This document shows, piece by piece, positions 12,643 to 14,351 of a DNA stretch of 14,351 bases. The notes beneath the pieces are model-generated. The model worked only from the letters and a program-made list of their open reading frames with translations. It searched no databases and had not been told where the DNA came from. The DNA is from an uncultured Eubacterium sp. Lineage in GTDB: Bacteria; Bacillota; Clostridia; Peptostreptococcales; Anaerovoracaceae. Both the position numbers and the translations under genes were made by a program. The number at the start of each line of letters is the position of its first letter. Within the stretch, counting starts at the first letter, position 1. The stretch covers positions 1-14,351 of the forward strand of contig CAMOGZ010000012.1 in assembly GCA_946614405.1 (NCBI GenBank), given 5' to 3'.

Positions 12643-12672
12643 GGAATGCCTGCCATTACGACAGCCACGCCG
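12643..12672. repeat. Direct repeat, copy 2 (overlaps the 3' end of the nuclease-like gene)
   Basis: Second copy of the 30-bp repeat. It includes the terminal codons and stop of the gene ending at 12656 and 13 bases beyond it. The pair looks like a local tandem duplication of a gene end, or two members of a dispersed element that has supplied the stop codon. Confidence 0.85.
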
Positions 12673-13465
12673 AAAGGGTCTTCTCCAGCATGGCGGGATT
12701 CAGCGAACCGTCTCCAAATTCCAAAGTGATGATCAGATTGACGCCGGGAACGTATCCTGCCCGGAGATACTGCTTCAGTTTGATGATGAATTTCTCAAAA
12801 TACTCCTGGTCGCTGAGCATTCCAAAGTGTTCGTACAGGATTTCCCGTCCTTGCTTCGGAATCAAAATTGTGAAGTCTGTCGCAATGGTGATCCCGCCGA
12901 TATTGTGTTCTTCTTCATAGACATAGGGTATCCCGAGATGCCGGAGGGTGTTGCAGATGATGACTTCAGATTTGGAACGCACTACCCAACCGTCTGGAGT
13001 AGGGTACTTTTTTCCTTCCGGTTTGTAGTCGCTGTACTTCCTGGGCTTTGCCAGCCAGGCCTCCGGGTCAGTGATCCCGACGAAGGAAAGGCACTCCTTC
13101 GGCAGGTTCTGATAACATCGCGGAAAAGACTCCTCCGCCACACGCGGATCGTATTCCCAGAATGACTGGATCAGATGATCCAGGTCCCTGACCATGGCAT
13201 CCAGCTTACGGATAGCAGTCTTGAGGTAGTAGGTTTGCTTGATCAACTGAACTTCCGGGTGATTCTCGGGTCCCAGGTATTTCTCCGGATAATTGCCCTT
13301 CCCCCTGTGTGTGACCTTATAATACTCACCACGCCCCCTGCGGTTGCGACGTTTCAGTGAGCATCTGTGATAACGGGACAGGGATCGGTAGTGTTTCTTC
13401 AGCTGCTTGAGCAGCTGCTTCTTCTCATCGCGTTCTGCGATCAATTGGGTCTTCAGGTCTAGCAT
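12656..13465 (-). CDS. PD-(D/E)XK nuclease-like protein of unknown function
   Basis: A 269-aa soluble protein I do not recognise by name. The N-terminal third is helical and very basic (coiled-coil-like 1-25, then an Arg/Lys-rich stretch 33-56 and another helix 70-105), suitable for nucleic acid binding. The C-terminal third looks like a PD-(D/E)XK fold: RSKSEV with Glu167, ATDFTI with Asp197, ILYEHFGM with Glu212/His213, Lys229 and Tyr233 in the next helix, and LIITLEF near 244-250. The E...D...E-x-(K/H) order matches the family, but the usual lysine is replaced by histidine in the EHFG segment, so activity is inferred only. AAGGAAGG precedes ATG 13465, and the gene has a good promoter. No methylase, helicase or other restriction or defence partner is adjacent. 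Its last codons lie inside a direct repeat. Confidence 0.7.
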   Translation of the reverse strand: MLDLKTQLIAERDEKKQLLKQLKKHYRSLSRYHRCSLKRRNRRGRGEYYKVTHRGKGNYPEKYLGPENHPEVQLIKQTYYLKTAIRKLDAMVRDLDHLIQSFWEYDPRVAEESFPRCYQNLPKECLSFVGITDPEAWLAKPRKYSDYKPEGKKYPTPDGWVVRSKSEVIICNTLRHLGIPYVYEEEHNIGGITIATDFTILIPKQGREILYEHFGMLSDQEYFEKFIIKLKQYLRAGYVPGVNLIITLEFGDGSLNPAMLEKTLSAWLS

Positions 13466-13599: not shown

Positions 13600-13800
13600 A
13601 TGGAATATTTCCTGGGTCATATCATATATATTCTGATTGGTGGTTTTATCATTGCTGCGATTTGCGCAGTCTGGGCTTTTGCCGCAGAGAAATGGAATAA
13701 GACGAAGAAGGAAGAGGGCATCAAGGACGCCATCGACTGTGGCATGGGCTGCAGTGGATGTGCGATGTTTGCCGCATGCGGAAAACACCGTCAGGAATAA
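13600..13800 (+). CDS. Small Cys-rich single-pass membrane protein, FeoB-associated-like
   Basis: A 66-aa protein from ATG 13600 with AAGGAG 8 bases upstream; an earlier in-frame TTG overlaps that site. Residues 5-29 form one hydrophobic helix. A basic linker (KWNKTKKEEG) follows, then CGMGCSGCAMFAACGK with cysteines at 47, 51, 54 and 60. One N-terminal TM helix plus a short C-terminal cytoplasmic Cys cluster is the layout of FeoB-associated Cys-rich proteins, which accompany ferrous iron transporters. No feoA or feoB is in the window, so the assignment rests on layout only. It could instead be a generic Fe-S or metal-binding membrane peptide. It is transcribed alone and ends in a UUCG terminator. 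Confidence 0.75.
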   Translation: MEYFLGHIIYILIGGFIIAAICAVWAFAAEKWNKTKKEEGIKDAIDCGMGCSGCAMFAACGKHRQE

Positions 13801-13812
13801 CTTGGTTGCTGG

Positions 13813-13837
13813 AACCGGTCTTCGGACCGGTTTTATT
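13813..13837 (+). terminator. UUCG-loop terminator after the Cys-rich protein gene
   Basis: AACCGGTC (13813-13820) and GACCGGTT (13825-13832) form a perfect 8-bp stem closed by a very stable C(UUCG)G tetraloop, followed by TTATTG. Confidence 0.88.
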
Positions 13838-13877
13838 GTGTCTGCGGTGGCTGCACAGGACACCCCTGGGCAAAGAC

Positions 13878-13990
13878 GAGTCCCGGGATCGCACATATGC
13901 CTCGGGATCGCAGGCGACTCCTGGAATCACAGCCGAGTCCTGGAATCGCAGCTGAGTCCTGGAATCAAAGTTGATTCTCCGGGATGATCG
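13878..13990. repeat. Six degenerate 19-bp tandem units
   Basis: Units start at 13878, 13897, 13916, 13935, 13954 and 13973, an exact 19-bp period. The middle three are closest to GAGTCCTGGAATCGCAGCY; the outer ones have GGGATCG in place of GGAATCG. A weaker unit may precede them at 13859. The period is not a multiple of three, and stops occur in the frames I followed, so the array is noncoding. Confidence 0.8.
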
Positions 13991-13991
13991 T

Positions 13992-14035
13992 CCACCCATT
14001 TTTCGTTTTTCTCATTTTTAGGTGGTTTTCAACAA
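13992..14035 (-). repeat. GGTGG hairpin unit A
   Basis: Read on the - strand: TTGTTGAAAACCACC, an AT-rich variable middle, then GGTGG, 44 bp in all. The ACCACC and GGTGG ends can pair. First of four units in the right end of the window; its start-to-start distance to unit B is 50 bp. Confidence 0.75.
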
Positions 14036-14040
14036 GGGCC

Positions 14041-14085
14041 CCACCCCATATCTTGAAAAAACGAGAATTAGGTGGTTTTCAACAA
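14041..14085 (-). repeat. GGTGG hairpin unit B
   Basis: Same orientation as unit A with an identical 18-base leading part (TTGTTGAAAACCACCTAA on the - strand). Length 45 bp, ending GGGGTGG. It faces the core segment at 14086-14251. Confidence 0.75.
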
Positions 14086-14251
14086 TTTTTTATTCGGCAC
14101 AAATGGAAGATTAAGGAAGAAATCGGGATGTGCGAAGTAAATTGAGTCTGAGATTTGAATGCAGCGTTCACTTTTCGGGCTGTTGATGAGCTGGATAAGG
14201 GCGTGAAGGAGTCAGTTCGACGGGATGAGACGAAAATGACCTTGTTAAATC
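14086..14251. other. Core between the two repeat pairs, no gene seen
   Basis: About 166 bases flanked by oppositely oriented repeat pairs. One + frame stays open for about 40 codons to a stop inside unit C, but it has no ATG/ribosome binding site combination and runs into the repeat, so I do not call a gene. No promoter, terminator or tRNA-like fold was recognised. It could be the middle of a small nonautonomous element. Confidence 0.4.
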
Positions 14252-14295
14252 TTGTCGAAAACCACCCAATTTCTTAAAAACAGAGTTTTAGGTGG
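14252..14295 (+). repeat. GGTGG hairpin unit C
   Basis: TTGTCGAAAACCACC, a variable AT-rich middle and GGTGG, 44 bp, now on the + strand and thus inverted relative to units A and B. Its start is 50 bp before unit D. Confidence 0.75.
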
Positions 14296-14301
14296 TATGC
14301 T

Positions 14302-14345
14302 TTGTTGAAAACCACCCAAAACGCGATTATTTCAAAATTGGGTGG
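14302..14345 (+). repeat. GGTGG hairpin unit D
   Basis: TTGTTGAAAACCACC, a variable middle and GGTGG, 44 bp. The arms ACCACCCAA (14311-14319) and TTGGGTGGT (14338-14346) are perfectly complementary over 9 bp. Further units could follow past the window edge. Confidence 0.75.
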
Positions 14346-14351
14346 TCATCC

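Follow-up and report, generated by a model that had tools for sequence, protein, structure and literature searches.

Contig C12 of this uncultured Eubacterium sp. ends in a 354-bp intergenic element made up of eight short half-sites, CCACC or GGTGG, which are arranged in alternating orientation. We tentatively read this element, at close to but somewhat under even confidence, as a REPIN/BIME-like, non-autonomous and probably once-mobile array of half-sites in duplex DNA that would be read by a candidate trans-acting protein. The window, i.e., the whole stretch of DNA that was analysed, is the entire contig (14,351 bp), from an assembly of 1,461,717 bases in 223 contigs with a completeness of 89. 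The features at its right end are listed in Table 1.

Table 1. Features at the right end of the window.
Feature	Position	Strand	Description
Upstream gene	13600..13797	+	66-aa Cys-rich protein; weak, below-cutoff match to FeoB_associated (E 0.0016)
Terminator-like hairpin	13810..13835	+	Past the Cys-rich gene, ahead of the element
Flanking 19-bp tandem repeat	13907..13967		3.2 copies; ends 24 bp before the element
Whole element	13992..14345		354 bp, from the first CCACC through the last GGTGG
Unit A	14035..13992 (13992..14035)	-	44 bp; TTGTTGAAAACCACCTAA ... GGTGG; half-site starts 29 bp apart
Unit B	14085..14041 (14041..14085)	-	45 bp; half-site starts 30 bp apart; 50 bp from A
Core	14086..14251		166 bp; without GGTGG or CCACC
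Unit C	14252..14295	+	44 bp; TTGTCGAAAACCACCCAA ... GGTGG
Unit D	14302..14345	+	44 bp; final GGTGG 6 bp short of the contig end

Structure of the Element

The four units share a start, TTGTYGAAAACCACCYAA, with 18 conserved positions, and the end GGTGG, and differ in their AT-rich middles. In the - strand pair (A and B) as in the + strand pair (C and D), one unit starts 50 bp from the other, and the two pairs are opposed. The first-pass annotation had described this layout, with units of 44/45/44/44 bp, 50-bp periods and a 166-bp core, and all of it was confirmed here, as were the shared ends, with a conserved start three positions longer than had been given. The element itself was also found where it had been placed, with the exception that its right end had been set at 14346, one base beyond the last GGTGG. 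Among 2000 dinucleotide-preserving shuffles of positions 13851-14351, 61 had two units sharing an arm sequence, 1934 had one, five had none, and no shuffle reached three.

The half-sites start at relative positions 0, 29, 49 and 79, then 270, 299, 320 and 349. Four of them lie within the 18-bp strong form, each with a bare 5-bp partner at a distance of 29-30 bp. Inverted pairs (I1, I3, I4 and I5) link the two ends of the element, which means that terminal inverted repeats are present. The contig stops at 14351, shortly beyond unit D. The 50-bp period corresponds to 4.8 helical turns at 10.5 bp and a 28-31-bp step to 2.7-2.95 turns, so that phasing is approximate; array steps of 20-21, 41, 52-53 and 61-62 bp fall close to whole turns and count in favour of a duplex-DNA reading, which the 50-bp period fits less well.

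Distribution of the GGTGG Word

Even when three mismatches were allowed, the 18-base word was found only at the four places in the window, and the GGTGG element is single-copy in the genome as assembled. A scan of 536,678 bases of the same genome for four or more such units with arm gaps of 10-45 identified the window only (two shuffles gave none), and scanning of 20 additional contigs added one array, built on a different word. The two-unit GGTGG pattern was present in one of 17 genus genomes, the source genome. For the core, neither the source genome nor phages or plasmids yielded similar DNA; phages and plasmids also gave no blastn match to the full element, and the two-part unit pattern was absent from the viral contigs searched.

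Looser searches returned scattered matches. The exact 15-mer was found in at least 120 stretches of viral contigs, with one match apiece in the 80 listed, as is expected for a 15-mer, and in two of 61 genomes, the source genome and G058, the latter with a single match. The pattern GAAAACCACC..GGTGG..TTG was identified in 7 of 349 genomes of the family, the six besides the source having one place each, and its reversed control gave one match (G028). Two of these genomes (G329 and G335) had matches that resemble ordinary strong hairpins and were rejected as relatives of the unit. Among 84,980 species genomes, a collection that may omit the source genome, the single-unit pattern had one match, in a Rhodobacteraceae record, which by our estimate is about the chance level.

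Similar Arrays with Other Words in the Genus

An array was found at the Cys-rich gene of another genome of the genus, G013, where it is built from 36-bp units of the form CGCACKTAT-N21-RGTGCG. That genome has at least 141 such units (68 + 73 pattern matches, with none for the reversed control) and more copies of the array than the 22 that were aligned; those at C10:130, C13:56911, C17:197, C24:23489, C29, C34:117, C46:358 and C60:7276, some of them contig-cut or partial, stayed outside the alignment. The aligned copies are 354 bp (14 copies), 355 bp (6), 356 bp and 357 bp in length, and unit spacings in a search allowing mismatches were 39-41/61-62/62/93-94/62 in 21 of the 22. The order of the slots is fixed, the half-sites run through the entire element and, by blastn, the element was present in one of the 17 genus genomes. 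The copy at L156:6711-7064 and the 21 aligned with it (alignment A2) have twelve near-invariant GTGCG half-sites on a grid of approximately 31 bp. The repeat also has an invariant TTGGTTTACAATAA close to one end and a central dyad, CCATA..TATGG.

A blind scan for places where a single 5-bp arm recurs in inverted pairs of fixed spacing identified a CTACA-N23-TGTAG element in a second relative, G006, whose chromosome carries it at 10 places. Its pattern had 18 + 18 matches, all in one of the 17 genus genomes, and the reversed control had one match (G003). The form at L351 has two pairs around a core, with half-site steps of 28/24/28/67/28/24/27, and unit numbers vary at the other places. The same scan gave two further arrays in the source genome itself. 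Contig C11 (L222:162-391) has a CTGGT two-pair element with steps of 28/13/28/87/28/13/28, comprising four units, all exact but for a mismatch in one; its word extends to TCACCAG/CTGGTGA, its unit period is 41 bp and there are imperfect repeats in its left flank. Contig C56 (L326:752-971) has a GGGAA array with half-site steps of 21/7/21, whose pattern is in one of the 17 genus genomes; its GGGAA/TTCCC half-sites follow 21-bp steps, and the array has GGGAAYATTCCC dyads.

Across these arrays, opposed half-site starts within a unit are 28-31 bp apart (27 in single G006 units), and each tested word or element was confined to one of the 17 genus genomes. The blind scan for four or more units found none in 400,000 bases of G008, 300,464 bases of other genera and 1,052,225 bases of viral contigs. 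The number of arrays is a lower bound, as the scan covered about half of the source genome, a sixth of G006 and a seventh of G008. Three-unit hits, namely L216 and L231 in the source genome and four in viral contigs (arm gaps 17-38), were kept outside the argument; among the three-unit hits, the gap is constant in L062 (28) and in L103 (21).

Direct alignment of the window to three G013 copies gave no convincing homology. The equal length, 354 bp, of the window element and 14 of the 22 G013 copies may be a coincidence, since the elements measured in G006 and on C11 span 230-285 bp. The arrays differ in unit number and spacing, and shared descent is not claimed for them on these comparisons. 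It is possible, although we consider it rather doubtful, that they represent an undescribed class of fixed-geometry arrays in which inverted half-sites lie about 28-31 bp apart and the word switches between species and within a genome. The open-licence literature, searched with a few choices of words, had no title or abstract describing such arrays. If such a word-switching class is real, it implies that the proteins which assemble on the arrays and bridge DNA belong to a co-evolving family, mobile or host-owned, that diversifies rapidly.

Genomic Location

The Cys-rich gene was matched in 15 of the 17 genus genomes, the source included, and marks a site that is shared with G013. A hisZ homologue directly follows this gene, within about 500 bp and with no array, in 7 of 14 relatives (G002, G004, G006, G007, G008, G010 and G011). 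In G013 the hisZ homologue comes after the array, in G014 it is approximately 1.3 kb beyond the Cys-rich gene, and in the other five relatives none was found within a stretch of about 3.2 kb. A scan of both sides of the locus in the 14 relatives, requiring at least three units, found an array in G013 alone. In the source genome, a hisZ-like gene begins at base 183 of contig C25 (169 bits to PF13393, under the curated cutoff of TIGR00443), and the first 68 bases of that contig are a 35-bp tandem repeat. Based on the gene order in relatives and the array at this place in G013, the gap between the Cys-rich gene and hisZ is most likely also where the window element lies, with contigs C12 and C25 being putatively joined by gene order.

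The first-pass annotation had suggested a bounded, possibly mobile miniature element around a core, to be recognized by an empty site in a related strain. This part of its interpretation stood, as the layout recurs in relatives and the neighbouring genes adjoin without an array in the seven relatives listed above.

Short tandem repeats specific to the locus, such as those to the left of the window element, also edge several G013 copies. Upstream, positions 12656-13465 (-) encode a protein of 269 aa that matched nothing in Pfam or NCBIfam; among 5.8 billion proteins, the search returned the protein itself and four relatives with identities of 32-44%, the best-scoring at 41%. Its cluster comprises 5 member sequences from 8 contigs, the largest of which has 22,421 bases.

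A Candidate Protein Acting in Trans

In the reading that we prefer, a dimeric or multimeric, sequence-specific protein would read the half-sites in double-stranded DNA. The same protein would bind both the strong 18-bp and the weak 5-bp half-sites, bridge paired sites and join the two ends of the element. The word of an element would be matched to the binding protein of one lineage, for which a transposase-like enzyme working in trans is the likeliest candidate; this protein would either move the element, as we prefer, or use it as a docking site. Mobility in trans is preferred because each word is limited to one species and, in two of them, has been amplified there. For the GGTGG element, a single copy in the genome as assembled, mobility of its own is a prediction.

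The identity of such a mover was sought with an E. coli RayT query, which had nothing at E<=1 in 709,975 bases (49%) of the source genome; the same search had one match in G008, which was not significant (E 0.20). No target-site duplication was visible by eye at the edges of the 22 G013 copies, and the right edge of the window element is 6 bp from the contig end.

A host-owned docking site, i.e., a host-selected array for a nucleoid, chromosome-organising or regulatory protein whose copies spread by duplication and not as mobile DNA, is an unlikely alternative with some evidence in its favour. The G013 copies have diverged by about 32% in unit interiors and have kept their half-sites (1.9%), which looks like upkeep of each copy, and their spacing is nearly fixed. 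However, the word differs between sister species and even inside one genome, its restriction to one of 17 genomes for each tested word is unlike the site of a conserved host protein, and the source genome as assembled has one GGTGG copy.

If the preferred reading of a trans-acting protein is right, a single genus offers one DNA architecture in a natural series that varies in its recognition word. Such a series would suffice to seek the binding protein through correlations between words and protein variants, and would allow us to ask how DNA-binding specificity and dispersed sites switch together.

Inverted Half-Sites or Hairpins

The units had previously been interpreted as structured nucleic acid on which selection for structure acts; as RNA or single-stranded DNA hairpins they would have 24-25-nt loops. 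Folded singly as RNA in their own direction, units A to D formed stems of 7, 6, 6 and 9 bp (z -2.6, -1.5, -1.7 and -2.8, respectively), consistent with the 6-9 bp proposed earlier, and loop length is nearly constant. In addition, positions 13980-14351 folded as one long imperfect hairpin (z -5.5), better than 100 shuffles. However, the inverted half-sites alone explain the folding energy of the units and of the whole element, and the long hairpin arises because the element ends are inverted copies. The arms are complementary in all five words, as is expected when one half-site repeats in inverted orientation, and a dimer that reads one word both ways would explain this equally well as a stem. 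If the arrays do share descent, the five complementary words would mean that the class as a whole is compensated, and structure would then be favoured.

The copies within G013 argue against the hairpins. Between the 22 copies, the twelve 5-bp half-sites diverge by 1.9%, in comparison to 31.8% for the unit interiors and 33.2% for the linkers. Of 660 arm pairs, 646 were consensus, five were G-U wobbles, nine were broken and none was compensated. In RNAalifold of the copies, covariation contributed -0.63 of the -48.5 kcal/mol, and 4 of the 53 predicted pairs had changed on both sides; the predicted helices were mostly long-range and not unit hairpins. The power of covariation is limited here, as the arms hardly vary. 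In G006, 184 of 185 arm pairs were intact and none was compensated, in a sample biased by a search pattern that demanded intact arms.

The bases just inside the arms were also analysed, by comparing pairing within their own unit to pairing with permuted arms of other copies. There was no excess in G006 (94 of 180, permuted mean 100.5) or in the four units of the window (10 of 20, compared to 13.5 permuted). The G013 slots gave a deficit (slot 1), no difference (slot 2, p 0.21) and a slight excess that would fit a hairpin (slot 4, p 0.025); slots 3, 5 and 6 hardly vary and are thus uninformative, with slots 5 and 6 pairing at 23 and 0 of 110 positions, respectively. Rfam had no match above threshold, the sole listed match being H19_2 (E 0.39, far under its cutoff).

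Since the half-sites are near-invariant and G013 has no compensated pair, the word is conserved as sequence, which would point to recognition in duplex DNA. Together, these comparisons favour inverted half-sites of duplex DNA over the hairpin explanation, which we consider improbable, and the selection on structure that had been proposed is weakly supported at best. These results also suggest caution in general, as intergenic "hairpins" of constant length can be inverted half-sites instead of RNA folds, and the divergence of copies within a genome helps to decide between the two.

Comparison to Known Repeat Systems

REPINs and BIMEs are the nearest known kind of element. The window element has inverted doublets of a conserved short word with interiors that are variable in sequence and constant in length, and it shares with RAYT-moved REPIN/REP doublets, as outlined in PMC3116915 and PMC3733652, the intergenic inverted pairs, the invariant short word, the presence of several word families per genome and, for its relatives, dispersal. 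REPs are described as palindromes tagged with GTAG or CGTC types, with loops of 2-20 or 4-5 bp, and GTGG is named as a degenerate tag in one species (PMC3733652). By contrast, the arms here are 5 bp, the interiors 23-26 bp (24-25 in the window) and the word is GGTGG/CCACC, with no GTAG or CGTC tag. Compensatory changes are reported as common in REPINs (PMC3116915), whereas none was found in 660 G013 or 185 G006 arm pairs, the latter sample being biased as noted, and the searched 49% of the source genome had no RAYT match. We have not filed the window element as a REP because it differs in tag and loop size and its relatives differ in compensation.

The element is intergenic, with regularly spaced units in alternating orientation, and in this it resembles BIMEs, which are outlined as regularly spaced palindromic units, mostly extragenic, and are reported to bind proteins (PMC2817692). 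The build of the unit and the word differ from those described there, as there is no GT(A/G)G head with a GC-rich palindrome and the G013 slot order is fixed. Unlike a BIME, the GGTGG element as assembled is without many copies per genome, and many-copy arrays were found only with other words, in G013 and G006.

MITEs such as BOX, RUP and Correia elements share the small size, inverted ends and species restriction; terminal inverted repeats together with target-site duplications are their hallmarks (PMC3049150, PMC2229807). A classical MITE, i.e., a remnant of two opposed transposon ends with paired transposase sites, derived from a gene-less insertion sequence or a larger transposon, would account for the opposed multi-site ends of the window element and for the G013 arrays that lie inside a larger element with inverted ends. 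We consider this quite improbable, as the G013 half-sites span the whole element and not the ends alone, no duplication was seen by eye at its 22 copies and no autonomous relative was met, the dedicated search being the RayT query only.

Pairs of Rho-independent terminators share the short GC-containing arms, and TTTT follows the hairpin on the + strand of units A and B, but 24-25-nt loops and 5-bp arms do not fit a terminator; our terminator scan accepts loops of 3-8 only and so cannot judge the units. The unit size of TIGR arrays is about 36 nt. TIGR arrays are, as outlined in PMC12045711, likewise arrays of units with constant and variable parts, whereas the units here face both ways, two in each direction in the window, with none of the one-orientation direct repeats of CRISPR or TIGR arrays, and their variable parts diverge within a slot as ordinary sequence does.

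A local duplication accident without function is very improbable and already largely refuted by recurrence: GGTGG units were found only at the window, and the adjoining 19-bp tandem repeats suggest a duplication-prone locus, but the unit middles differ while ends and lengths are constant, none of the 2000 shuffles reached three units, and a similar architecture with other words is present in the source genome and two relatives. The first-pass annotation would have taken units that occur only here, without arm covariation, as a sign of such an accident; this is nearly true for the GGTGG word and misleads because the architecture, not the word, recurs.

Several other repeats were noted in the relatives. 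In G013, a larger element with 61-nt inverted ends that are 82% complementary (L147:1795-1855 and 2687-2747) occurs in several copies, some of which enclose the 354-bp array. One copy (C29) is without most of the array and was considered as a clean excision, which we rejected, as it appears to be an internal deletion (a deletion derivative). In G006, one sequence (GAAGTGTACCCATAAAAGTAGAGTC...) starts at or within the array at both L348 and L354, with more array pieces about 1.4 kb further on, and is possibly an insertion sequence that splits two arrays. A different kind of tandem repeat, likewise kept outside the argument, is present at L257:13263-13630 in the same genome, where seven near-identical units of approximately 54 bp each have the stem GTTCCATGCA..TGCATGGAAC.
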